Of a stretch of DNA of 46,243 nt, positions 6,673 through 24,583 are shown in pieces. The position numbers and the translations under genes were made by a program. The first letter of the stretch is position 1. Every line of letters starts with the position of its first letter. The notes below the pieces were generated by a model. It had not been told where the DNA came from. It did not search any database and saw only the letters and a list, made by a program, of their open reading frames with translations. Source of the DNA: Nitrosopumilaceae archaeon (lineage in GTDB: Archaea; Thermoproteota; Nitrososphaeria; Nitrososphaerales; Nitrosopumilaceae); assembly GCA_035631875.1 (NCBI GenBank), contig DASQHX010000004.1, positions 1 to 46,243 of the forward strand, in the 5' to 3' direction.

Positions 6673-7368
6673 CTATGCTAATTCTAGAATTTCATTCAAA
6701 TCCTCTATGCCCTGTCCTTTTTGACTAAGATGTGGAACTTTGAGCAATTTGAATTCTTTATCTAAACATAATTTCAATACTTCAAATGCTTCTACATGAT
6801 TAACGGTTGAATTTAACCTGCTTTGTAGTGCACGATATTCTGCAAGTCCTTTAATTCCATCTGCCTGAAGGTAAAGTTTACTTTGTTGAGACGAAAATTT
6901 CTTTATCAATTCAACTTTATCATCTATCACATCTGTGATATCAAAAAACACCTGTGGTGAAAAATTCCTTGTCAATGGAATCTCATATGATAAAATATTT
7001 GAAACAAACCTTCCAGCTTCTACTGTTGATAATGATACTGCGCGATGATCGTGGTGTACATCACCATGAGAATGTGTAATTATGATCTCTGGATCCACTT
7101 TATTTACAAAGAATTCTATGTGACTGATTAATTCGCTACTAACAGTCAGTCTGGTATCTTCAAAGTTATCTATCCATAAATTTTTAGCACCAATAAACTT
7201 GGCTGATTGCATAAGCTCCTTGGTTCTTTGCTTTGGATCTCCTCCGACAGATCCTCTTGTAACAGAATACATGTGAACCTCATGTCCTTGTCTTGCCGCT
7301 TTAAGCAAGAGCCCACCACATCCTAATTCAATATCATCTGGGTGTGCACCAATTGCCAATATTTTCAT
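6673..7368 (-). CDS. PIG-L (LmbE-like) family deacetylase
   Basis: Zinc-dependent deacetylases of this family remove N-acetyl groups from GlcNAc-containing lipids and thiols. The N terminus shows GAHPDDIELGCGG (residues 7-19, with H9, D11 and D12 of the HPDD motif), and HSHGDVHHDHR (about 99-109) gives the third zinc ligand. Length of 231 is typical. There is no signal peptide, so action is cytoplasmic. The position near a hexosamine-related glycan cluster makes an N-acetylhexosamine substrate plausible, but this is inference. Confidence 0.9.
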   Translation of the reverse strand: MKILAIGAHPDDIELGCGGLLLKAARQGHEVHMYSVTRGSVGGDPKQRTKELMQSAKFIGAKNLWIDNFEDTRLTVSSELISHIEFFVNKVDPEIIITHSHGDVHHDHRAVSLSTVEAGRFVSNILSYEIPLTRNFSPQVFFDITDVIDDKVELIKKFSSQQSKLYLQADGIKGLAEYRALQSRLNSTVNHVEAFEVLKLCLDKEFKLLKVPHLSQKGQGIEDLNEILELA

Positions 7369-7905: not shown

Positions 7906-9330
7906 ATGAATAATTCAATGCATATCCCAAATGAATTAATAGATTTTCTTGAACGTGAAACCTATTCATTACTTATCAAAGGGGATGCTGGCACGGGAAA
8001 AACCACTCTTGCACTGACTATTTTACGTGTCTTAAATATTAATAAAAACTGCCTCTATATTTCGACCAGAATTTCACCCGAGCAACTTTTCAAATATTAT
8101 CCATGGCTTGAATCATTTTTTGCTCAGTCACAGAAATCAGAATTAGAACAAATCTCCGAATTTGAGACCGATAGGCCTATTTTTGTTGATGCTAGACTTG
8201 ATGAACCTGGTTCATTATTTGAAAGAATCACAAACCAATTGATGGATGTTAAAGCGCCGATTATAATAATCGACAGTTGGGATGCCATAGGGTATTTTAT
8301 GGACAAAGAAGCACTCATGAATAATGCACGAGTACTTCAAACTTGGAGGGAAAGATCCGGCGCAAAAATAATTTTTATCGCCGAAGCACCAAAGGATACA
8401 ACACTTGATTATCTTGTAGATGGTATAGTGGAATTACAACAAAAATATTATGATAACAGAATAGTACGAGAGATTTTTCTTTCAAAATTACGTGGAGTCA
8501 GAATAAATAGGCCATCTTATATTTTCACGCTCAACAGTAATGTGTTTCGTAGTTATGAGCCATATCGTCCTACTGATTATATGATTACTAATGTTCTAGA
8601 TAAAAAACCTGAAGACACACCACGAACATTCAGTAATAATCATATAAAAACAGGATATGCGGAACTAGATAGAATACTTGGTGACGGGCTTCATAAGAAA
8701 AGTTTTGTAAATATCGAGCTTGATTCTAACATAAATGCCAAAGTAATCTTGGCATTTCTGGGCAAAATTATTTCAAACTTTGCTAGTACAGGTAACCCTG
8801 TTTTATTCCAACCTTTTGAAGGAATTAACTATGAGTATCTTACAAAATATCTGGAATCTCGTTTATCAAAAGATGCTATGAAAATGCTAGAAATTCCACA
8901 ATTTGTCAATAAATCAAAAAGCACATCTACATATTCTACACAAGATCTAAGGTATCCTGACAGTATACAACAACTAGAATCTATCAAAAAAGACATCATA
9001 AAAATACAGAAAAAACACCCAAAGAAACTTTTACTCGCTATCGTGGGATCAGACTTGTCTCATGAATCCCACACTGGTGATATGAGAAAACAAGTAAAAC
9101 AACAAATTGAGTTTATAAAATCAAAAACTGATCTTTTCATCTTAGTAACAAGACATTCACAAGATAATATTCAAGAAAAACTGTCTAAAATATCTGATAT
9201 GTATCTCAATGTATCTGAAATAAACGGTACATTGTTTTTAAAATCAAAAATTCCATGGTCACATCTTTATGCAATCGTTACTGATAGAAATCATGGATAT
9301 CCAAACATTATCTTAGAACCAATAGTCTAA
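7906..9330 (+). CDS. RecA/KaiC-like (RAD55-family) ATPase, two-domain
   Basis: The first half has a Walker A motif GDAGTGKT (residues 26-33) and a Walker B stretch IIIID ending at Asp 123, as in KaiC/RAD55-type ATPases. The second half starts with KTGYAELDRILGDGL, the usual KaiC-domain entry, but the P-loop position reads ELDSNINAK and lacks the GKT motif, so it is probably a non-hydrolysing domain. Length is 474. A histidine kinase and a receiver follow on the same strand within 0.9 kb, suggesting a signalling module. The overall shape recalls GvpD-like or archaeal KaiC-like regulators; the exact role is unknown. Confidence 0.8.
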   Translation: MNNSMHIPNELIDFLERETYSLLIKGDAGTGKTTLALTILRVLNINKNCLYISTRISPEQLFKYYPWLESFFAQSQKSELEQISEFETDRPIFVDARLDEPGSLFERITNQLMDVKAPIIIIDSWDAIGYFMDKEALMNNARVLQTWRERSGAKIIFIAEAPKDTTLDYLVDGIVELQQKYYDNRIVREIFLSKLRGVRINRPSYIFTLNSNVFRSYEPYRPTDYMITNVLDKKPEDTPRTFSNNHIKTGYAELDRILGDGLHKKSFVNIELDSNINAKVILAFLGKIISNFASTGNPVLFQPFEGINYEYLTKYLESRLSKDAMKMLEIPQFVNKSKSTSTYSTQDLRYPDSIQQLESIKKDIIKIQKKHPKKLLLAIVGSDLSHESHTGDMRKQVKQQIEFIKSKTDLFILVTRHSQDNIQEKLSKISDMYLNVSEINGTLFLKSKIPWSHLYAIVTDRNHGYPNIILEPIV

Positions 9331-10813: not shown

Positions 10814-11881
10814 ATGAGAGCTAAGGCAACCGTGTTAGTGACTGCAGCTGGGGGAATAGTTTCACAAGGTATAATGAAATCTTTGAAACTGTCTAATATG
10901 AAAAAAGATCATCCAGTAATGTATGAAATTGTTGCAACTGATGTTAATGCACAGGCAGCAGGTCTGTACCGCAGTGATATTGGTATTCTCATGCCTTCGT
11001 ATTCGTCATCAGATTATGTTGATTCCATAATTAAAATCTGTAAAGAACAAAATGTTCAAGCCATTTTTGTGGGATCAGAACAAGAATTATTGCCTATTGC
11101 ATTTGCTAAAGAAAAAATAGAAAAAGAAACAGGTTCAGCAGTACTCGTAAATCCTATAGACGTGATATCTATAGCAACAGACAAATGGAAAACTTTCGAG
11201 TTTCTAAAGAAAAATAATCTTCCATGCGCTGAATCTTCATTGCCTGAAAACCAAGAAGAATTTATTGAAGAATTTGGTTTTCCTCTAGTTGTAAAACCAC
11301 GAGAAGGACATGGTTCATTACACTTTTACATTGTAAATAATAGAGATGAAATTAGACAAGCAATTTCTGCAATTCAAAAAGTAGGCTGGCGTCCAATCAT
11401 TCAAGAATACCTTGATGGAGAAAATGTAGAATTTACCTCAGGAGTTGTGGTAAACAGAACAGGAAAGAACGTAATGGCTTCAATCTCTATGAGAAAAACG
11501 CTCAAACAAGGCCAAACATACAAGGCATTTGTAGATGATTTTCACGATGTACGCAGGTCTGCTGAAGAAACTGCATTGAAATTTGGTTGTAGAGGATCAA
11601 TCAACATACAAGCAAAAATGATTGAAAATACGCCCAAAATATTTGAAATTAATCCTCGTTTTTCAGCCACTTGTCCGATACGTGCAGTGGCAGGAATTAA
11701 TGAACCAGATATAGTTTTTCGTAATTTTGTCCTAGGTGAAGAAATCAAAATAGACGCATATCAAAAGCTTGTCTGTATGAGATATTGGAATGAAGTTTAT
11801 GTTCCGTATTCTACTTATGAAAAAACAAATAGAATGGGAAAAGTTTCAAACTCAGATTCATTCATTCCGGATTATTTTTAA
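10814..11881 (+). CDS. ATP-grasp domain protein (CarB/PylC-like)
   Basis: The N terminus VLVTAAGGIVSQGIMKSLK is a Rossmann-like pre-ATP-grasp domain. The ATP-grasp core covers about residues 115-320 with FPLVVKPREGHGSLH (ATP-binding strand and loop), IIQEYLDGENVEF and the metal-binding IFEINPRFSATCP (E and N of the ENPR-like motif). Such enzymes form acyl-phosphate intermediates and join carboxylates to amines. Members of this kind are common in polysaccharide clusters, where they are suspected to attach amino acids or similar groups to sugars. The gene converges on the PelG-like gene 16 bases away. Confidence 0.85.
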   Translation: MRAKATVLVTAAGGIVSQGIMKSLKLSNMKKDHPVMYEIVATDVNAQAAGLYRSDIGILMPSYSSSDYVDSIIKICKEQNVQAIFVGSEQELLPIAFAKEKIEKETGSAVLVNPIDVISIATDKWKTFEFLKKNNLPCAESSLPENQEEFIEEFGFPLVVKPREGHGSLHFYIVNNRDEIRQAISAIQKVGWRPIIQEYLDGENVEFTSGVVVNRTGKNVMASISMRKTLKQGQTYKAFVDDFHDVRRSAEETALKFGCRGSINIQAKMIENTPKIFEINPRFSATCPIRAVAGINEPDIVFRNFVLGEEIKIDAYQKLVCMRYWNEVYVPYSTYEKTNRMGKVSNSDSFIPDYF

Positions 11882-11897
11882 ACTAGATTAAAATTTG

Positions 11898-13547
11898 TCA
11901 AACGTATTTTGAAAAAAACATGGTTCCTGCATTTTTTACGATCTTTCTGGCATACAGTGTAGATGTTATTGCAGCCATGATGGTTGCTCCTAAATAAGCA
12001 AATACTATATTTTCAAAACCTGATTGTGCTAAAATCGTGCCAGCAATCACGACTATTGACGTTCCTACTATAACAATCGATGCCATCATTTTTATTCTAT
12101 TTAGGAATGCCATGAATAAACTGTTTACTGCAAATATTGAAAGGAATATGTTACTAATAGATGCAATACGTAATACTTGAATGCTGATTTGGGAACCACC
12201 TGCGTGAAAGACGATCGTCGATGCCACAAAATTCAGAATAACAACTGTCGTTATTGCAGAAATAATAGTTATGAGCAGCAATCGCTTGTAGCGTTGTTGC
12301 AAAAACGAATTGATTTTTTTCATTTCAGAAATTTTATGATTTATAGTCATATTTCCTAATTGTAAATAAAGTGGGCTCATTAAGACAAATTGTATAATTG
12401 ATGTTGATAATAGTACTAGTAATGCTAGATCAGCACCTGCATGATACACAGAATTAAACTCCATTGGAAGACCAATGTGCTTAGCCATCGGGTTAAATAT
12501 CCATGAAAGTATTCTATCTGAAAAAATCATGCAAAAGTAGAATGTTCCAAATAAAAAGTGGGGCATTGTTTCCCATAGTTGTATACTGAGCCTAGACATG
12601 ATAGTTTTATCGGTTACGCTCATTGGACGATAAAAATGCAATACTTCATTATTTGCTACAGATCCTGATGTTTTAGAAATTATCTTATAGTGATGATATA
12701 TTGCAAGAACTGATAAAACTACAAACGCTGTACCCAAAGCAACAAAATATCTTGTAGACGTTTCAGGTATGAAATTAGGAAGAAAATAATAAACTGAAAG
12801 CAACGCAACAAACGCACCAGAATATGCAAAAATTACATGCTTAATTTTCTTTAATGCGTAAATTATCATGTAGCTAGTTCTATGTAATGAAATTGTTACT
12901 GTGCTGATTACACTTACATTTATGAGGTTATATGGAATATGCATAATTGTTGCTATGCCATATAGTGAACATACAGCCAAAGATATGATAAGTGATAACA
13001 GAATATAATTTCTTTTTAGTATTCTTTTTACTTCACAGACATTACCTTGATCATGATAAAAAGTAAATAATCTACTGAAAATTTGTAAAACCCCCTCCGT
13101 TATTGCAAGCCCAAGAAATACTCCAGCTATAAAGGCTGTTGTTATTGTGATAGGAAGTCCAAAAGCCATCCAAAGCGAGACACCAAAAACTAATAAGAGC
13201 ATCAATGAGCCTAACCACGGAAAGACCAGACTGAAACCTTCTACTATTCTGTGTTTTGTATCAGGTATTTGCTTGTAAAATGATTTAACAATATTTTCTT
13301 TATTTTTGTCCGAGTTATCGTATGCATCAATAAAACCATAAAGATACTTTGAAAGATCGTAATAATCACTAAATCCATATTTCTTTAGTGTTTCTTTACT
13401 ATATCCTAATACCTCAAGCAGCACAATGATATCTGCAATATTATTGACAACAGGTTGGATCTCTATTATGGATCTTGCCACCTTTTGTGCAAAAATACGA
13501 ATTTCTTCTGTTAGGATCCTGTCACTATCATATTTTGATATAGGCAA
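11898..13547 (-). CDS. PelG-like polysaccharide exporter (MOP-type membrane protein)
   Basis: This 549-residue protein has a soluble N-terminal part of about 110 residues followed by roughly twelve hydrophobic segments. The stretch ETMPHFLFGTFYFCMIFSDR followed by ILSWIF resembles the FGxFYxxxxxxDxxxxW region of PelG, the inner-membrane MOP-family transporter of the Pel exopolysaccharide. It is the last gene of a four-gene operon, 14 bases after the epimerase gene. Other Wzx-like flippases remain possible, since only motif-level likeness can be seen. Confidence 0.65.
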   Translation of the reverse strand: MPISKYDSDRILTEEIRIFAQKVARSIIEIQPVVNNIADIIVLLEVLGYSKETLKKYGFSDYYDLSKYLYGFIDAYDNSDKNKENIVKSFYKQIPDTKHRIVEGFSLVFPWLGSLMLLLVFGVSLWMAFGLPITITTAFIAGVFLGLAITEGVLQIFSRLFTFYHDQGNVCEVKRILKRNYILLSLIISLAVCSLYGIATIMHIPYNLINVSVISTVTISLHRTSYMIIYALKKIKHVIFAYSGAFVALLSVYYFLPNFIPETSTRYFVALGTAFVVLSVLAIYHHYKIISKTSGSVANNEVLHFYRPMSVTDKTIMSRLSIQLWETMPHFLFGTFYFCMIFSDRILSWIFNPMAKHIGLPMEFNSVYHAGADLALLVLLSTSIIQFVLMSPLYLQLGNMTINHKISEMKKINSFLQQRYKRLLLITIISAITTVVILNFVASTIVFHAGGSQISIQVLRIASISNIFLSIFAVNSLFMAFLNRIKMMASIVIVGTSIVVIAGTILAQSGFENIVFAYLGATIMAAITSTLYARKIVKNAGTMFFSKYV

Positions 13548-13561
13548 TTGAAATTAATCTC

Positions 13562-14530
13562 CTAAATTGGTAACATGTTATATTCAGCCCTTTTTTTGAA
13601 AAACTCTGCCAGATCGGTCAAGCCATCCTTTAATGTAATTTTTGTCTCATATCCAAGAATGTTTTTTATCTTGTCAATATTTGCCAAGCCGAATCGAACA
13701 TCGCCTGGTCGTGTAGGACCGTACCTATGAAGTATGTCTTTTGTTTTTGTAATTTTTTTTAATGTTTCTAATACTTCGATAATACTAGTTGGTATCCCGG
13801 AGGCAACATTAAAGACATCCCCTACCGCGTTTTGTGATTCCATTGCAAGCATGTTTGCTTGTACGATGTCTTTTATATGGACAAAATCACGTACCTGTTT
13901 TCCATCTCCGTGAACAGTTGGAATTTCTTTATGTAATAATTGATTCGTAAAAATGGTAATCACACCACTATAGTCATTTAACGTCTGTCTAGCCCCAAAC
14001 ACATTGAAATATCTTAAAGCTACAGTCTCAAGACCATAAGTATTATAGTATGCAGCAAGATAGTCTTCAATTGCAAGCTTTGATGCTCCATATGGTGAGA
14101 ATGGTTTACACACCATGTCCTCTGAGGCATTATGATCTTTTATTACTCCATATACCGCAGCTGATGAGGCAAAAACAAATCGTTTTACGTTTTTCTCTAA
14201 ACAAAAATTCATTACATCAAGTGTCATGTTCACATTAACATTGTGAACTAACATGGGTTCACTTACTGATAATGGAACACTTGCAATTGCAGCTTCATGA
14301 AAAACTAGATCGATATCACTGACACCAAATAAAAGCCGACCTATGTGCTTTGCATCTCCGATCACTAAATGAAATAGCTTGTTGTGTTCATGTTGTCTTA
14401 GATTCTCTATTGAACCTGTGCGCAGATTATCAATGACGTATGTCTCAATGCTTCTGTTGATGAGTTCATCTACTATGTGACTTCCTATGAAACCTGCACC
14501 ACCAGTGACTATAGCTCTTGAAACTTTCAT
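13562..14530 (-). CDS. NAD-dependent sugar epimerase/dehydratase (GalE-like)
   Basis: This extended SDR enzyme has the NAD-binding motif GGAGFIG (10-16), the acidic D34 in the ribose-binding position (VIDNL), a Ser-rich strand ASSAAVYG (121-128) and the catalytic Y147xxxK151. The C-terminal part has the RYFNVFG and VxVRDFVHIKD-type phrases of UDP-glucose/UDP-GlcNAc 4-epimerases. Its start codon overlaps the stop of the PelF-like gene by four bases (14527-14530), so translation is coupled. In this context the likely product is UDP-GalNAc or UDP-Gal for the polymer. Confidence 0.88.
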   Translation of the reverse strand: MKVSRAIVTGGAGFIGSHIVDELINRSIETYVIDNLRTGSIENLRQHEHNKLFHLVIGDAKHIGRLLFGVSDIDLVFHEAAIASVPLSVSEPMLVHNVNVNMTLDVMNFCLEKNVKRFVFASSAAVYGVIKDHNASEDMVCKPFSPYGASKLAIEDYLAAYYNTYGLETVALRYFNVFGARQTLNDYSGVITIFTNQLLHKEIPTVHGDGKQVRDFVHIKDIVQANMLAMESQNAVGDVFNVASGIPTSIIEVLETLKKITKTKDILHRYGPTRPGDVRFGLANIDKIKNILGYETKITLKDGLTDLAEFFKKRAEYNMLPI

Positions 14531-16020
14531 TGTATGACTACCTCCGCTAATTTTGCTTTCTTTTTTACTTCACATGAATTCATCAAATCTTCATACATTT
14601 TTTTTATTTGTTCTACAGTTTTTTCAATAGTAAATTCGTCCTTTACTTTTTTTATAGCCGCCTCTCCTAATTCCTTTCTTAACTGTTCATCATTGAGCAA
14701 TGTTACTATGCCATTGGCAATATCTTTAGGGCGCATGCTTCTTACAAGTAGGCCACAGCCTTCTAATGCTTCTCTGACACCTCCAACGTCTGCTGCCACG
14801 ACAGCTTTTCCACAAGCCATGGCTTCTATTATTGAAAAAGGAAATCCCTCTGTAATACTGCTAAACGCAATCACATCGGCTGAATTGTAAGCTTTTTCTG
14901 GTTCGCTTGTGCCTCCCATGAACTTGACATTGTCTGTCAAATTGAGACTCTTGATTTTATTTACACATTTTATAGAATATTCAAGATCTGTTGATCTACC
15001 ATATATGAGACATTGAATGTTTGGTATCACTTCTTTTACATGACTAATTGCTCGTATGAGACAAACAATGTCTTTGTAAGGCTCTATCCTTCCAACAGAC
15101 ACTACTGTTGGTCTGGCATCTTCTCTTTTTATTTCCACGGGGCAGAATTTTTGAATATTTACACCATTGTAGATCACTTTGATTTTTGCTGGATCTGCAC
15201 CAAGATCTTTCTCCCAATCTGCGTTTGCTTCACAGACTGGTGTTATTACATCTGCAATTGAATACATTGCTCTAGTAATATTGCGCGAAAAAAATTTCCA
15301 GAATATTTTAGCTGGTTCATCATATAACACCGCATTATAGTATAACATCAATTCTCTGAACGCTACACCGTGCTCTGTTATTATAACTGGGCAATTGCTT
15401 TCGCGTTTCGCACAAATTGCAATCATGGAGGGCAGCCACGCAAGAGAAGAATGTATAATGTCAACTTTTGGCACTTGAAAGGAAAGGAGCTGCATACTTC
15501 TGCTAATAAGTTGAAAAGCAGTCAACGTCTCTTTTAGAGACATATTTTCGTAGAGTCGGTCCTTTTTTATATGATCAAGAAAACTATCCCATACTAGATT
15601 GTACTCAAAACACTTTTTGGAATCATAAATAATTAAAAATTGATGGAGCTGCCAAATTATTTCTACAAGCTCTTCTGGATAACATGTCTCTGATAATACA
15701 ACATTTAAAAATTTTTTATATAGAGGCATGAATTCATTTTTAATAACTGATTCTGTTGTACGAAGAATTTTTAATAACAGTGAACGCTTTTCATTATAAA
15801 ATTCTTCATATCTGTTTGTTCCAAATATCGGTATTTCTATTACCTTGGTAACATTATTAGGAATCGAATATTTTCCATTGCCGTTTGGATTTGAGAGTTG
15901 ATTTATAACTACAAATTCCCACTCTGGCATGCTGTCTATCAAAGTCTTAGTCCAGGTGTAAATTCCACCTGAAGCATAATTAGGATAAGCATCCCAGCTA
16001 ATCAGTAATACTTTCTTCAA
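14527..16020 (-). CDS. PelF-like GT4 glycosyltransferase
   Basis: The N-terminal lobe begins MKKVLLISWDAYPNYASGGIYTW, followed by an unusually long helical insert (about residues 75-185) before HSSLAWLPSMI. TEHG (215-218) and FRELMLYYNA then match the PelF pattern. The C-terminal lobe has IYNGVN (283-288), VGRIEPYKD (309-317) and the nucleotide-sugar E-x7-E motif with E391 and E399. PelF is the cytoplasmic glycosyltransferase thought to polymerise Pel. The gene overlaps both operon neighbours by four bases. The GT4 assignment is secure; the PelF subfamily is likely but needs a profile search. Confidence 0.8.
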   Translation of the reverse strand: MKKVLLISWDAYPNYASGGIYTWTKTLIDSMPEWEFVVINQLSNPNGNGKYSIPNNVTKVIEIPIFGTNRYEEFYNEKRSLLLKILRTTESVIKNEFMPLYKKFLNVVLSETCYPEELVEIIWQLHQFLIIYDSKKCFEYNLVWDSFLDHIKKDRLYENMSLKETLTAFQLISRSMQLLSFQVPKVDIIHSSLAWLPSMIAICAKRESNCPVIITEHGVAFRELMLYYNAVLYDEPAKIFWKFFSRNITRAMYSIADVITPVCEANADWEKDLGADPAKIKVIYNGVNIQKFCPVEIKREDARPTVVSVGRIEPYKDIVCLIRAISHVKEVIPNIQCLIYGRSTDLEYSIKCVNKIKSLNLTDNVKFMGGTSEPEKAYNSADVIAFSSITEGFPFSIIEAMACGKAVVAADVGGVREALEGCGLLVRSMRPKDIANGIVTLLNDEQLRKELGEAAIKKVKDEFTIEKTVEQIKKMYEDLMNSCEVKKKAKLAEVVIQ

Positions 16021-16625
16021 GAGGGTTGCCTCTGTTTATTCTTAGATGTATTATCTATCATGCTATCTATAATGGGATCTGGTTTTCTTAGACGCATAAA
16101 TTTCTGAATCTCTTCTTCTATTTTGTCAGAGGCTTGATGATTAGTATGTGTCACACTCATTGTATCAGATGCACGTTTTTTTCTTAGTTTCATCCTTTGC
16201 ATGATTTCATCTTCACCGGAAAATGGATTCACTTTTCCTGCTAGAAAAAGAGCTTTATTGTAAACTTTCTCAGCTTTATCACCGTCTACACCTAGTAAAT
16301 AATATTCATAAGCCTCCTGAAGCGACCAAAGAGATTCTCTAATAGACTCTCCAATAATATAATCAGCATTTTCCTCATAAATTCTTGCAGCCTCCAAGTA
16401 TAATTGACGCGCTGCTATTGGATTACCTTGATGTGCAATACAGATTGCTGCACAAGAACAACTCAAAGCTGCTTTAACAAACAAGTTATTTTTTAAACAT
16501 TCTGCGGAATCTTTTAAATAACACACAAAGGCTTCAAAATAATTTCCACCATCTTCCAACTTGATAGCATTAAACCACAAATTATCGTCATCGGTAATCC
16601 TATCTATCCATGTTTTTACTTTCAA
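16017..16625 (-). CDS. TPR/SNAP-like helical protein, first gene of glycan operon
   Basis: The 202-residue protein consists of amphipathic helix pairs resembling TPR repeats (NYFEAFVCYLKDSAECL, FVKAALSCSCAAICIA, PIAARQLYLEAARIYEE) over residues 20-135, then a charged tail. There is no membrane segment. Its stop overlaps the start of the PelF-like gene (16017-16020). Bacterial pel operons include PelE, a membrane-anchored TPR protein; this one could have a scaffolding role in the same place, but sequence identity with PelE is not visible and no function should be assumed. Confidence 0.65.
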   Translation of the reverse strand: MKVKTWIDRITDDDNLWFNAIKLEDGGNYFEAFVCYLKDSAECLKNNLFVKAALSCSCAAICIAHQGNPIAARQLYLEAARIYEENADYIIGESIRESLWSLQEAYEYYLLGVDGDKAEKVYNKALFLAGKVNPFSGEDEIMQRMKLRKKRASDTMSVTHTNHQASDKIEEEIQKFMRLRKPDPIIDSMIDNTSKNKQRQPS

Positions 16626-16741
16626 TCTAGTTTTATTTGCTATGTGTGTTTTTTAAAATAATGGTAAGTTTCTATAGGTAAAATGTTTTAGTAAATAGTT
16701 CTATAACGCTTAAGAAACTTGTTGCACCATTTTATAATTTA

Positions 16742-16746
16742 GAGGT
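16742..16746 (+). promoter_or_regulatory. Shine-Dalgarno site of glmS
   Basis: GAGGT lies 8 bases before the ATG at 16755. An AT-rich TTTTATAATTT at about 16731-16741 lies just upstream. A visible ribosome site suggests a leadered mRNA. Confidence 0.45.
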
Positions 16747-16754
16747 TACAAAAA

Positions 16755-18515
16755 ATGTGTTCTATTATTGGTTACATTGGATCCGATAAAGCAGCGCCAG
16801 TATTAGTTCAAGGGCTAAAACGAATGGAGTATAGAGGATACGATAGTGTAGGAATAGCAACATTTTCTGATAATCAAATTTTAATAAAAAAAGGAGTTGG
16901 AAAAGTTGATCAGGTAAATAATACCTCTAAACTAGACACACTTTCTGGCCATATCGGGATTGGTCATACCAGATGGGCTACACACGGTGGGGTAACGTCT
17001 GCAAATGCTCATCCACATCCATCAAGCTCAAGCAAAATTGCTATAGTTCATAATGGAATTATTGATAATTTTTCAGAACTAAAAAAAGACTTGCAACAAA
17101 AGGGTTTTCTATTTAAAAGTGAGACAGACAGCGAAGTAATTGCAAATCTTTTACAATATGAGTTTGATCAAACAAAAAATGTCAAAAAATCTATGTTACA
17201 AACTGTTGGGCAATTAGTAGGGAATTATTCTTTTGTTGCAGTATTTAATGACGGAATGATTGCCGCAGCCAGATTTCATGAACCATTAATTGTAGGAATT
17301 GGAAAAGAAGGATATTTTGTCTCAAGCGATGTTTTGGGATTTGTAGGACATACTGATCAAGTGATTTATCCAGATAATCGCGAGTTTGTTATAATTAATA
17401 CACATGGGATTCAAATGTTTGATTTTGATGGAAATCCAGTAAGACATCAAATAACAAAAATATCAAAAGAATTTGCTGATTCATACAAAGGCGAATATGC
17501 ACACTATACCATAAAAGAAATCTCAGAACAGCCCAGAACAATATTAAAAGCAGGTCATAATACAAAAATCGAACTTGACCTTGTAGCTGATTTAATAAAA
17601 CAAGCAAAAAACATGTTCATAACTGGAAGCGGAACAAGCTACAATGCCGCACTTGTTGCAAAACACATTTTTTCAAAATATGCAAAATTAAAGATTGAAT
17701 CTCTCATATCCAGTGAAGTACCATATTCTCCGAACTTTTTTGATGATCAATCAATATTGATTGCCCTCTCTCAGAGTGGAGAAAGTGCAGATGTGCTTGA
17801 GGCTGTAAATATTGCACAAAATGATGGCACAAAAATAATTTCTATTGTAAATATGATGACATCTTCGCTTGCAAATATGTCATCAATCTCGATAGGATTG
17901 AACTGTGGGCCAGAGATTGGTGTTGCGGCAACCAAGAGCTTTACCTCACAACTTGCTGTATTGTATCAACTCACTGACAAGCTTTGTGGAAACTGCTTAG
18001 GACTTGATTTAAATGAAATTTCACAGGCCATGTCAAAGACATTATTAGATCATTCAAAAATCATAGATATTGCAAAACAACTCAAGAATGTTTCTGACAT
18101 CTATATACTTGGAAGAGGAATACATTACCCAATAGCTTGTGAGGCCTCACTAAAAATAAAAGAACTGACATATATTCACGCGGAGGGTCTTCCTGGCGGT
18201 GAATTAAAACATGGCCCCCTTGCGTTAATGGATTCCAATGTTTATGTTATAATAATTAATCCGCATGATTCAACATATGCTAATACTCTGACAAGTGCAC
18301 ATGAAATAAAGGCTCGTGGTGCAAAAATAATTGGGATCTCTGATAAACCAAGTGATGTTTATGACTTTTGGATACAAATCCCGACAGTTGGTGAAGCTTT
18401 TTATCCTTTAATAGAAATCATTCCAATTCAACTGCTTGCATATTATTCTGCTCTTGAGAAGAATGCAGATCCTGACTACCCAAGAAATCTTGCCAAATCT
18501 GTTACTGTAAAATAG
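16755..18515 (+). CDS. glmS: Glutamine-fructose-6-phosphate aminotransferase (isomerizing)
   Basis: GlmS makes glucosamine-6-phosphate from fructose-6-phosphate and glutamine, the entry into UDP-GlcNAc. The N-terminal class II glutaminase starts MCSIIGYIG with nucleophile Cys2 and has GHTRWATHG and HNGIIDN. Two SIS domains follow (FITGSGTSYNAALVAKHIF with LSQSGESAD; YILGRGIHYPIACEASLKIKE). The C-terminal DYPRNLAKSVTVK is the family hallmark. The full length of 586 is normal. It is transcribed divergently from the PelF/PelG-like operon, consistent with precursor supply for an amino-sugar polymer. Confidence 0.97.
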   Translation: MCSIIGYIGSDKAAPVLVQGLKRMEYRGYDSVGIATFSDNQILIKKGVGKVDQVNNTSKLDTLSGHIGIGHTRWATHGGVTSANAHPHPSSSSKIAIVHNGIIDNFSELKKDLQQKGFLFKSETDSEVIANLLQYEFDQTKNVKKSMLQTVGQLVGNYSFVAVFNDGMIAAARFHEPLIVGIGKEGYFVSSDVLGFVGHTDQVIYPDNREFVIINTHGIQMFDFDGNPVRHQITKISKEFADSYKGEYAHYTIKEISEQPRTILKAGHNTKIELDLVADLIKQAKNMFITGSGTSYNAALVAKHIFSKYAKLKIESLISSEVPYSPNFFDDQSILIALSQSGESADVLEAVNIAQNDGTKIISIVNMMTSSLANMSSISIGLNCGPEIGVAATKSFTSQLAVLYQLTDKLCGNCLGLDLNEISQAMSKTLLDHSKIIDIAKQLKNVSDIYILGRGIHYPIACEASLKIKELTYIHAEGLPGGELKHGPLALMDSNVYVIIINPHDSTYANTLTSAHEIKARGAKIIGISDKPSDVYDFWIQIPTVGEAFYPLIEIIPIQLLAYYSALEKNADPDYPRNLAKSVTVK

Positions 18516-18759: not shown

Positions 18760-19374
18760 ATGACACATTATAATATTTCAAAAAGATTTGTGATGGTGCT
18801 ATTTTTTACTGTATTCTCTACTGCCATGTTATTTGCACCAAATTATTTTTTGAAATCGGCATCAGCTGACCAGATGGTTCCAAGAGATGAAGGTGAGATT
18901 ATTTTTCCAGGTTCAAATGATGCAGGTGGAAACACAAATCACACTGTTTCCATCATTCCCATACAAAACACCACATCTGTAAACACTATACATGTAAACA
19001 CAAATCACACAGTTTCCATCATACCAACACAAAACACTATACATGTAAACACAAATCACACTGTTTCCATCATCATACAAAACACCACCGTATATGACAA
19101 AACCAATCCAGTGGGAGGTTTTAGCAATATTGTATGTAAGAGTGGATATCAATATGTACAAATGACAGGGCAGTATACTGCTGGAGATATTTCATATAAG
19201 GTGATTTTTCTACAAATGGAATTATTAGATGGTAATGGTAATGTCATAGCTAAAGGGTCTGGATTTGTGGATGATATTGATGCACATATGACTAAAAATT
19301 TTAACGCAATAACGAGATATCCGTCAACCTTCTCATCATGTATTATTCAAATTGATGGCACAATTCCAAAATAA
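18760..19374 (+). CDS. Secreted or anchored repeat protein, unknown function
   Basis: The 204-residue protein has an N-terminal hydrophobic segment (about residues 9-28, RFVMVLFFTVFSTAMLFAP) that looks like a signal peptide ending near SASA. Three copies of a NTNHTVSII...QNT motif follow (about residues 57-107), rich in NxT sequons that could be N-glycosylated. The C-terminal 90 residues form a beta-rich domain with two Cys. No family is recognised. It is probably extracellular. Confidence 0.7.
   Translation: MTHYNISKRFVMVLFFTVFSTAMLFAPNYFLKSASADQMVPRDEGEIIFPGSNDAGGNTNHTVSIIPIQNTTSVNTIHVNTNHTVSIIPTQNTIHVNTNHTVSIIIQNTTVYDKTNPVGGFSNIVCKSGYQYVQMTGQYTAGDISYKVIFLQMELLDGNGNVIAKGSGFVDDIDAHMTKNFNAITRYPSTFSSCIIQIDGTIPK
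18931..19090 (+). repeat. Imperfect tandem repeats in secreted protein gene
   Basis: AACACAAATCACAC(A/T)GTTTC occurs three times, starting near 18931, 18999 and 19050, each followed by a variant of ATACAAAACAC. The copies encode the NTNHTVSII motif. Copy spacing varies (about 68 and 51 bases), pointing to slippage or unequal crossover. Confidence 0.7.
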
Positions 19375-21513: not shown

Positions 21514-22593
21514 ATGAAAACTCTGTACTTTGGAATAATTGGTGGAATTTTTATCATGGTTATTTTTATCAGTAATACTGCATTAACTGCGCAACAAGAC
21601 TCTAACAACCAATCTACATCAAGCACAACTACAGGAGACTTGGCTACGCGGATTGGAGGTAACGCCATAGGCATCTATTATCCAATGTATGATCTAAGCG
21701 AGCTTCCTCAAGTGCTTGCAGCAAAGAAAGCTTTCTCCATCGTACCATTCGATGTAAACATAAATCCAGAATCTGGACCGGGAACAGAGCCTTCTATATC
21801 TTGGGCAGATGCGATCACCCAGCTCAAGAATACGGGTGACGTAGTTACAGGTTATGTACCTACAGGATACGGAACAAGGACTGTTGCAAATGTAGAAGAT
21901 ATGATATCTGCATACCATCAATTCTACCCCAAACTAGATGGAATAATGTTCGATGAGGTGTCTAGCTCTTCATCAGAATTTACATTTTACCAGACAATCT
22001 CAAACTATGCAAGGTCGCTAGGTTTCTCATACATACGAGCAAACCCAGGAAATTCAATACATCAAGGCGATGTACAACTCTTTGACCATATAGCAATATA
22101 CGAATCTTCAAGATATCCAGATGAATCGACACTTCAATCAAGAACCTTCTATCCTCAATATTCAAAGGATGTAGTTGGTTTTGGTGTCACAATACATTCT
22201 CAGCCAACATATAATTCGACTTGGCTTCATATGGCAACAAAATATCTGAAGTGGGTTTACATCACAGACCAAACAGAACCAAATCCATATGCTGTATTTC
22301 CATCATACTTTAACCAGTATCTTACTGATCTTTCATCTTTAGACATGGCCCTAACAATAAATGATCTGATCAACAATGTAAAATCAATGAATCTACAGGA
22401 AGATGAAACAACAATCTTTGATTCTAAACTTCAGGTAGCAATTAAATCGCTTAACTCAAACAACAATGAAGCCAAGAATCAGCTTAACGCATTTATTCAC
22501 GAGGTTAACGCACAAACTGGAAAGAAGATAACGCAAGATCAAGCAAATCAATTGATACGATCTGCACGAAATATTCTAAACTCAATACACTAG
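21514..22593 (+). CDS. Secreted Spherulin-4-like glycosidase (GH135-type)
   Basis: An N-terminal signal or anchor segment (about residues 5-26) is followed by a Ser/Thr-rich linker and a TIM-barrel-like domain, about residues 50-270. Family signatures are IVPFDVNINPESGPG (76-90), GYVPTGYGTR (113-122) and LDGIMFDEVS (141-150), the last with adjacent acids D147/E148. This matches Spherulin 4, which includes fungal Sph3, an N-acetylgalactosaminidase acting on galactosaminogalactan. A helical tail of about 80 residues follows. The product probably acts outside the cell on a hexosamine polymer; proximity to PelF/PelG-like genes makes it a possible counterpart of the PelA hydrolase. Confidence 0.8.
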   Translation: MKTLYFGIIGGIFIMVIFISNTALTAQQDSNNQSTSSTTTGDLATRIGGNAIGIYYPMYDLSELPQVLAAKKAFSIVPFDVNINPESGPGTEPSISWADAITQLKNTGDVVTGYVPTGYGTRTVANVEDMISAYHQFYPKLDGIMFDEVSSSSSEFTFYQTISNYARSLGFSYIRANPGNSIHQGDVQLFDHIAIYESSRYPDESTLQSRTFYPQYSKDVVGFGVTIHSQPTYNSTWLHMATKYLKWVYITDQTEPNPYAVFPSYFNQYLTDLSSLDMALTINDLINNVKSMNLQEDETTIFDSKLQVAIKSLNSNNNEAKNQLNAFIHEVNAQTGKKITQDQANQLIRSARNILNSIH

Positions 22594-23194: not shown

Positions 23195-24583
23195 CTAACT
23201 AAACTGATGAACTACGTCCATCAGGCTCTGCTTGAATTCTTCTGTAGTCAAACCCCATCTACCATATTCCTCCTTGTAAGCATCCCATGAGACTTCGGCC
23301 TCGCTTGCAATTTCAAGTATTTTTGGTCCTATCGCCTTTGTGTTAACTAGAATTGTCACGTTTGCCTGTTCGCTTTCAAGTATTGGTATCTTGACAAAAA
23401 TCATTCTAGAATCTTCAATGTTAAATCTGTCTTTGATGATTGCCTTGAGCGCATCTCTTTCTTTTACATCAAATTCTCCGCTGACTTTGACTAGTGCACA
23501 GCAAGAATCCTTTGGACCGCCCTTGTCTCGGACATCATTCTCATCAATATCGAACAAAAGTGCGTCTTCTTTTTTGTGAATGTGTTCTACAATTCTTTCC
23601 ATGGTGTTGCTTTTTCCTTTTGACATTAGATCTGTACTCCATATTTTTTCCTCAGATATGATTGGGATGACCCATGGAATGGCAAATTTTGGTCGTTTTG
23701 TTGCAAGCCATGTTCTATAGTTTGACATGTCCCATTCTGTTTCTCTTGCAAATGATGAAACAAACATCGAAATGGCACTTGCTGCAATCAGATTCATACC
23801 GCGATAATCCTTCCAGCCTACTTCTTGTTCTTTTGGAAGATCATCAATTATTGATGGAATCTTGTCCAATTTTTTTTCAAATCTATGAGCTAAGAGTCTT
23901 AGGGTTTTATTTGAAAAGAGTATTGAACAATCACTATATTTTATTTGGTGTTCTAGATTCATCACTATGTTTATTGCAGCAGCCTCAAAAATTATAGGAT
24001 CCCATCCAAACTCTGGTAAAAGTCCTAATGTTGCAATGGTTGCATGCTCTTTAGTATCTTTTTTTATGTATTGGATAAATCCACTTGCAAATGAACTGCC
24101 AGTTCCGCCTCCCATTGCAAACGGTACACAGAATCCCCTTACTGGTTCTGGTGAAAGAGCGGCAATTTGTTTTTGCATATCAAATTTAGTACTTACCTCT
24201 TTTATGAATCGGGTTCTGCCCTCTGCCCAATTTCTTGCTGCTCCTCCTGAACCATGAATTACGTGTTTATCTCTTAGGGCAAAAAGATCAGGATATGATT
24301 GTAAAATGAGATTTGCAGCTCTTGGATCCAAGTCAATTAGCAATGCTCTTGGTATGAGTGGTATCTCTCCACTTCCATATGATGGTGGAAATCTCAGTAT
24401 GGTGCTGCCGTATCTTTTGAGCACTCTGGATTCTTCCTTTTCACCTTTAAGAGTAGGTTTGAGCGGGTCTGCACCTACATCAAGAAGTAATCTTCTGTAT
24501 GCTTCTGCACCCAATCCTATGCCGCAATGACCAAAACATGTCATTAGCACCGGGGCTGGTGGCAGTGGATCAAACTTTGACAA
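23195..24583 (-). CDS. Tubulin/FtsZ-superfamily GTPase, tubulin-like (artubulin-type)
   Basis: At 462 residues this is tubulin-sized. The tubulin landmarks appear in order: CFGHCGIGLGAE (16-27, the GQCGNQ loop), LIDLDPRA (82-89), GSGGAARNWAEG (111-122, compare DAANNxARG), the GTP signature GGGTGSS (158-164), EAAAINIVMNLEHQIKYSD (200-218) with N205 at the guanine-binding Asn, and a C-terminal domain with VIPIISEEKIW and EEYGRWGLTTEEF. The T7 loop reads WDMSNYRTWL (284-293): Asp285 is kept but Asn288 replaces the catalytic acid, as beta-tubulin also lacks it. Tubulin homologues are reported from Nitrosarchaeum. It is likely cytoskeletal. Confidence 0.82.
   Translation of the reverse strand: MSKFDPLPPAPVLMTCFGHCGIGLGAEAYRRLLLDVGADPLKPTLKGEKEESRVLKRYGSTILRFPPSYGSGEIPLIPRALLIDLDPRAANLILQSYPDLFALRDKHVIHGSGGAARNWAEGRTRFIKEVSTKFDMQKQIAALSPEPVRGFCVPFAMGGGTGSSFASGFIQYIKKDTKEHATIATLGLLPEFGWDPIIFEAAAINIVMNLEHQIKYSDCSILFSNKTLRLLAHRFEKKLDKIPSIIDDLPKEQEVGWKDYRGMNLIAASAISMFVSSFARETEWDMSNYRTWLATKRPKFAIPWVIPIISEEKIWSTDLMSKGKSNTMERIVEHIHKKEDALLFDIDENDVRDKGGPKDSCCALVKVSGEFDVKERDALKAIIKDRFNIEDSRMIFVKIPILESEQANVTILVNTKAIGPKILEIASEAEVSWDAYKEEYGRWGLTTEEFKQSLMDVVHQFS

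Follow-up and report, generated by a model that had tools for sequence, protein, structure and literature searches.

The window analysed here is a 46,243-nucleotide stretch (positions 1 to 46,243, forward strand) of contig DASQHX010000004.1 from a Nitrosopumilaceae archaeon (assembly GCA_035631875.1). The contig end carries archaeal 16S/23S rRNA, so the host is an archaeon. Four minus-strand genes are packed between positions 11898 and 16625, separated by gaps of +14, -4 and -4 bases. The genes and features at this locus and around it are as follows.

6673..7368, minus strand: PIG-L/LmbE-type putative GlcNAc/GalNAc de-N-acetylase, a possible cytoplasmic deacetylase
10814..11881, plus strand: ATP-grasp (carbamoyl-phosphate-synthase-like) protein, convergent neighbour
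11898..13547, minus strand: PelG-family (MOP-type) polysaccharide exporter, 549 aa, about 11 TM segments, with an extra N-terminal helical region (1-105)
13562..14530, minus strand: SDR nucleotide-sugar 4-epimerase (GalE/WbpP type), 322 aa, probably UDP-GlcNAc to UDP-GalNAc
14527..16020, minus strand: PelF-family GT4 glycosyltransferase (putative polymerase), 497 aa, no TM segment
16017..16625, minus strand: soluble helical-repeat (TPR/SNAP-like) protein in the PelE position, 202 aa, putative scaffold
16626..16754: 129-bp divergent intergenic region between the operon and glmS
16755..18515, plus strand: GlmS, glucosamine-6-phosphate synthase, divergently linked
21514..22593, plus strand: secreted Spherulin4/GH135 protein, Sph3-like putative endo-alpha-1,4-N-acetylgalactosaminidase

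To determine whether the glycosyltransferase and the exporter belong to the Pel families, as had been proposed by a sequence-only reading of the four genes, we performed profile searches with Pfam and NCBIfam. The results showed that the glycosyltransferase passed the curated PelF equivalog model NF038011 (153.9 bits, cut-off 100, residues 10-476) and matched DUF3492 (PF11997, 117.7 bits, cut-off 23.3), although other GT4 families also matched its C-terminal half. It contains the GT4 E391-x7-E399 motif, and T215-E216-H217-G218 and R222-E223 were invariant in 13 archaeal and bacterial sequences. For the exporter, single-sequence searches gave nothing at E 0.001, and the only full-length Pfam hit was PelG (PF16933), which was weak for the window protein (16.6 bits, cut-off 29). 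To resolve this, we turned to orthologues and profiles, and found that an orthologue from another genome scored above the cut-off (31.8 bits), and that hhalign against bacterial PelG gave 95.4% probability and E 1.8e-8 over 401 columns. These results support the PelF and PelG assignments.

The epimerase matched PF01370 with 194 bits, and WbpP, WbgU and other epimerases were among its best PDB hits. It contains S123/Y147/K151 and a small residue, G281, at the GalE Tyr299 position, leaving room for the N-acetyl group, and Y147, K151 and G281 were invariant in five relatives. This feature is not decisive for the substrate, since 4zrm, named UDP-glucose 4-epimerase, has Ser there. The 202-aa protein gave only sub-threshold TPR/SNAP Pfam hits; its AlphaFold model (pLDDT 83) had Sec17/SNAP and TPR proteins as best matches (Z 11.8). 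It matches PelE only by position and helical-repeat fold; no similarity to bacterial PelE was found by HMM or hhalign and no TM segment was detected. GlmS was identified by TIGR01135 (625.6 bits), and is adjacent in many homologous loci, also in Methanomassiliicoccales.

To examine whether the gene order is conserved, we searched 400 genomes of the class with an archaeal exporter profile, and found the cassette in 30 of them. The four genes stayed adjacent in all 29 uncut loci, in three families of the class, while the 30th locus is cut by a contig end. Protein identity was 37-67% outside the closest relative. The pelE-like, pelF and pelG genes also occur together in Bathyarchaeia, Hecatellales and Methanomassiliicoccales. 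Both checks named in the sequence-only reading, family membership and conserved adjacency, therefore came out positive.

To determine whether the locus is a stripped archaeal form of the bacterial pel operon, as the same reading had suggested, we analyzed PelF trees and searched for PelD. Archaeal PelFs formed one clade on a long branch, outside the PelD-type Pel clade, and the five PelFs of canonical pel operons fell on a separate side of a branch with support 100/100 in two trees. No PelD hit appeared in the 80 named loci of the nearest relatives using a home-made profile. The PelD GGDEF domain was also absent from 14 exporter-positive archaeal genomes, although it was found in two of three control plasmids; only this domain was searched for, and streptococcal PelD also lacks it (PMC7112168). 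These results indicate that the locus is not simply a stripped canonical pel operon.

The sequence-only reading did not include the GH135 gene at 21514-22593 or the PIG-L gene at 6673-7368. The GH135 protein matched PF12138 with 102.9 bits and has an N-terminal hydrophobic segment (6-24), and its predicted structure matched Aspergillus Sph3 (5c5g) with Z 26.3, rmsd 2.5 and 224 aligned residues, the next unrelated match being 15.4. Among the aligned sequences, D147 was present in 18 of 18 and E197 in 16 of 18 (Asp in 2); their equivalence to the catalytic residues of Sph3 is inferred from motif position and not from a residue-level superposition. GH135 occurred in all 30 exporter-positive genomes and in 6 of 370 others (Fisher 1.4e-39, not corrected for phylogeny). 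It lies within 5 kb of pelG in 16 of 30 (chance about 1e-17 under a simple model), and 195-1292 bp from it in 14 loci. In Nitrososphaeraceae, and in a close relative of the window, GH135 is in the genome but not beside pelG. Presence and absence of the two agreed inside three genera, apart from one GH135-only genome in one of them, whereas the pattern was mixed in a fourth genus.

We also analyzed the other neighbours. The PIG-L protein (PF02585, 88 bits) had strong matches in 5 of 5 exporter-positive and 2 of 56 other relatives, and its gene is divergent next to pelE in Nitrososphaeraceae loci. The ATP-grasp protein (NF009402, 323.5 bits) is linked in most loci, with strong matches in 4 of 5 exporter-positive and 1 of 56 other relatives. 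These co-occurrences are suggestive but come from few genomes. No dedicated extracellular deacetylase is linked. The CE4 deacetylases of the genome lie in another GT2 locus or elsewhere, and no Agd3 match was found in 61 genomes, in a search without a positive control.

Compared with the bacterial Pel systems (pelABCDEFG of P. aeruginosa and pelDEA(DA)FG of B. cereus), the archaeal locus likewise encodes a PelF-family GT and a PelG-family exporter together, a TPR-like protein in the PelE position and a GalE-type epimerase, which is also found at Gram-positive pel loci (PMC7112168). It differs in the PelD result, the lack of sequence-level PelE similarity, the separate PelF clade, the cell envelope, and a GH135-type hydrolase instead of the PelA-type one, although no PelA-specific search was run. 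With the fungal galactosaminogalactan (GAG) pathway of Aspergillus and Neurospora (epimerase, Gtb3, Agd3, Ega3, Sph3), it shares an epimerase and a GH135/Sph3-type hydrolase linked to the synthase, in the cluster logic of PMC11356417 and PMC4817252. However, its synthase is a soluble PelF-type GT4 with a separate exporter, not the putative transmembrane GT Gtb3 (PMC4817252), and no linked GH114 was seen. The annotated but uncharacterised plasmid-borne pelF clusters of Deinococcus, Streptomyces and Kocuria have a PelF of the wider non-canonical branch, with an epimerase (Deinococcus, Streptomyces) and GH135 (Streptomyces, Kocuria) in one cluster. They also carry GH114-annotated enzymes, and an Agd3-like deacetylase in Deinococcus. 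We tested the polytopic protein of the Deinococcus/Streptomyces clusters as a PelG orthologue, and found only a 38-residue N-terminal match.

Taken together, we consider it probable, in the absence of biochemical data, that the cassette is an archaeal Pel/GAG-type exopolysaccharide system. In this model, the linked GlmS is inferred to supply hexosamine, and the epimerase is inferred to make UDP-GalNAc from UDP-GlcNAc. The cytosolic PelF-type GT4 would polymerise it, scaffolded at the membrane by the TPR-like protein, as inferred from Pel, where PelF polymerises Pel from UDP-GalNAc (PMC13254593). The PelG-type exporter is inferred to carry the chain across the single archaeal membrane, and the secreted Sph3-type GH135 hydrolase is inferred to trim the nascent alpha-1,4-GalNAc polymer outside the cell. 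GH135 (Sph3) acts on fully acetylated GAG and is needed for its synthesis (PMC12054363). The product would be a capsule or biofilm matrix, its chemistry being inferred. A nearby KaiC-type ATPase or the histidine kinase/response-regulator pair are candidate regulators.

A less likely possibility is that the PelF/PelG-type machinery exports a different polymer, such as a hexose or GlcNAc polymer or a heteropolymer, and that GH135 co-occurs because it acts on that polymer or on a shared matrix. The position of PelF outside the clade of canonical pel loci leaves room for a different sugar, GalE-type enzymes can be bifunctional, and the fungal GAG itself contains galactose (PMC4817252). On the other hand, the only characterised activity of GH135 in the papers read is on acetylated GalNAc polymer (PMC12054363), its co-occurrence with the exporter is tight, and the GlmS and PIG-L neighbours point to amino sugars. 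It is more doubtful still that GH135 degrades fungal galactosaminogalactan as a nutrient source, as proposed for Gagatemarchaeaceae (PMC10640624), with the PelF cassette being a separate capsule system and the co-occurrence reflecting a shared soil lifestyle. Several record titles point to soil or peat, and GH135 is secreted, multicopy and present in six genomes without the cassette. However, this reading fits poorly with the presence of GH135 in all 30 exporter-positive genomes, its tracking within genera, its proximity to pelG, and the pelF and GH135 genes in one cluster in Streptomyces and Kocuria, and many of the hosts are probably autotrophic ammonia oxidisers. An ordinary GT4 plus Wzx-type flippase locus for surface glycan or S-layer glycosylation, to which the low PelG score of the window exporter might point, is largely refuted by the full-length PelF and PelG evidence and by the adjacency of PelF and a PelG-like exporter in archaea and many bacteria.

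More tentatively, archaea may have their own, possibly ancient, lineage of poly-alpha-1,4-GalNAc matrix synthesis that is independent of c-di-GMP, belongs to a PelF branch spanning Archaea, Eremiobacterota, Bacillota, Acidobacteriota and Chloroflexota, and shares its trimming enzyme with fungal galactosaminogalactan. Canonical PelD-controlled Pel would then be one specialised offshoot of a wider cross-domain polymer system.

Pel-type machinery appears to have been described from bacteria only, and the bacterial operon survey in PMC7112194 does not mention archaea; we found no paper describing an archaeal Pel or GAG system in the open-licence literature searched. An archaeal version in which PelD was not found gives a concrete gene set for the exopolysaccharide and amino-sugar glycocalyx proposed in soil ammonia oxidisers (PMC7554672, PMC11559005), for which we saw no such genes named. 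The linkage of GH135 to the cassette offers an alternative to its published reading in acid-soil Gagatemarchaeaceae as possible fungal-wall degradation (PMC10640624), suggesting instead the processing of a self-made polymer. It also links the bacterial Pel and fungal GAG polymers through one hydrolase family in a third domain.

We confirmed that the four ORFs of the operon are present in the window. The spacing is 14 bases between the epimerase and exporter genes, and there are 4-base overlaps at the other two junctions. A divergent glmS gene starts 129 bp from the first gene, and a convergent ATP-grasp gene ends 16 bp from the last. The contig ends in archaeal 16S and 23S rRNA, and the window therefore comes from a genus close to Nitrosotalea.

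To determine the families of the four proteins, we performed profile searches, profile–profile alignment, hydropathy analysis and structure prediction. The 497-aa protein passes the NCBIfam PelF equivalog (153.9 bits, cut-off 100) and Pfam DUF3492, and keeps the E391-x7-E399 motif. The 549-aa protein has about 11 hydrophobic segments, and its only full-length family hit is PelG, which is below the cut-off for this protein alone (16.6 against 29), while the orthologue in the related genome G057 scores 31.8. Profile–profile alignment with five bacterial PelG proteins gave a probability of 95.4% and an E value of 1.8e-8 over 401 columns. The 322-aa protein is an SDR epimerase with Y147/K151 and a glycine at the position of E. 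coli GalE Tyr299, as expected if the N-acetyl group must fit, though this residue does not prove the substrate. The 202-aa protein is predicted as a soluble helical repeat resembling SNAP/TPR proteins (pLDDT 83; best Z 11.8), which is a common arrangement, and sequence homology to bacterial PelE was not found.

To examine the distribution of the cassette, we searched for the exporter in related genomes. It was found in five of 61 relatives and, using an alignment as the query, in 31 of 400 genomes of the class, belonging to three families. One of the 31, genome G176, carries only a fragment with stops (contig C16, 7586-7819), and broken GH135 pieces without the exporter were found in genome G174, consistent with joint decay. 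In the 30 loci read, the pelE-like, pelF, epimerase and pelG genes lie together in all 29 not cut by a contig end, with order changes in three. A scan of named genomes found pelE-like/pelF/pelG in Nitrosotalea, Nitrososphaeraceae, Gagatemarchaeum, Bathyarchaeota, Hecatellales and a Methanomassiliicoccales genome, and pelF next to PelG-like exporters in Eremiobacterota, Bacillota, Acidobacteriota and others. In two PelF trees, which did not include P. aeruginosa and B. cereus PelF and whose root is not inferred, the archaeal sequences form one group (97 SH-aLRT; 95/82), and the PelFs of the canonical pel loci sampled (four annotated with pelG on proteobacterial plasmids plus Cetobacterium) are separated by a long, fully supported branch.

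We then analyzed the surroundings of the cassette in the window, where the following features were noted:
104-1090, 18760-19374: fibronectin-III protein and a repeat-containing protein with an N-terminal hydrophobic segment, near the cassette
7906-9330: KaiC-family ATPase
21514-22593: protein with an N-terminal hydrophobic segment and a Spherulin4 (PF12138, GH135) domain
23195-24583: tubulin/FtsZ-family GTPase-domain protein of 462 aa

The GH135 protein, which the sequence-only reading had missed, scores 102.9 bits against PF12138. Its predicted structure (mean pLDDT 79; mostly 84-98 per ten-residue block over residues 51-210) matches Aspergillus Sph3 at Z 26.3 with 2.5 A over 224 residues, whereas the next match is Z 15.4. 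D147 is invariant and E197 nearly so in archaeal and bacterial relatives. A GH135 paralogue in the window's genome (locus L083, 8592-9917) has DQ in place of DE at the conserved catalytic Asp motif. In 400 genomes, all 30 with an intact exporter have the domain, against 6 of 370 others (Fisher 1.4e-39, without phylogenetic correction). Presence and absence agree inside the genera designated g1, g8 and g17, apart from one genome of g8 with GH135 only (G183), and the pattern is mixed in genus g31. The GH135 gene lies within 5 kb of pelG in 16 of 30 loci and directly beside it (195-234 bp) in four, while in the window itself it lies about 8 kb from pelG and 3 kb beyond glmS. Fibronectin-III (fn3) domains are fused to GH135 in at least one relative. 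A PIG-L deacetylase-like gene and the ATP-grasp gene also track the cassette in the smaller set of genomes.

To compare the cassette with related bacterial clusters, we analyzed plasmids of Deinococcus, Streptomyces and Kocuria. The results showed that they carry uncharacterised clusters of pelF with an unknown polytopic protein and, in various combinations, an epimerase, GH135, GH114 and an Agd3-type deacetylase. This is the enzyme set of the fungal GAG cluster (PMC11356417, PMC4817252) built around a PelF-type GT, and it supports reading PelF plus GH135 as one pathway.

To assess whether the archaeal system could be controlled through PelD, we searched for the PelD GGDEF domain. It was not found in 14 exporter-positive genomes, while two of three control plasmids gave a hit, suggesting that c-di-GMP control of the Pel type is unlikely. 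The PelE-like protein of an Eremiobacterota locus (L142, 8759-9997) carries a response-regulator receiver domain, suggesting phosphorelay rather than c-di-GMP control in that branch. KaiC-family ATPases sit beside the cassette in a Bathyarchaeia-type locus (L137, 7493-8194) and near it in many Nitrososphaeria loci. The proposal of the sequence-only reading that these genes form a Pel-like operon is supported, but the operon is not a member of the canonical pel operon, as the PelD GGDEF domain was not found in the genomes searched, its PelF lies outside that clade, and PelE is unproven.

In our search of the literature, which was confined to open-licence papers, we found none that describes Pel or GAG machinery in archaea. 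EPS genes in ammonia oxidisers are mentioned in general terms (PMC7554672, PMC11559005).

We infer that GlmS and the epimerase supply UDP-GalNAc, that PelF polymerises it with the TPR-like protein as a scaffold, that PelG exports the chain, and that GH135 trims it outside; the sugar identity, linkage, direction of transport, activity and matrix function in this scheme are inferred. If the polymer is deacetylated, the candidates are the PIG-L protein, which lacks an obvious signal segment, and unlinked CE4 enzymes. The window's genome also contains a second exopolysaccharide-like locus (locus L195 on contig C1, 1879-7005), with a CE4 deacetylase, a GT2 (chitin-synthase-like) protein and a second CE4 protein. 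GH135 in Gagatemarchaeaceae has been read as potential fungal cell-wall degradation (PMC10640624), and the six genomes with GH135 and no exporter keep this reading open. However, in the G. stordalenia locus (L077) GH135 lies 1.26 kb from pelG, so self-processing is the simpler reading.
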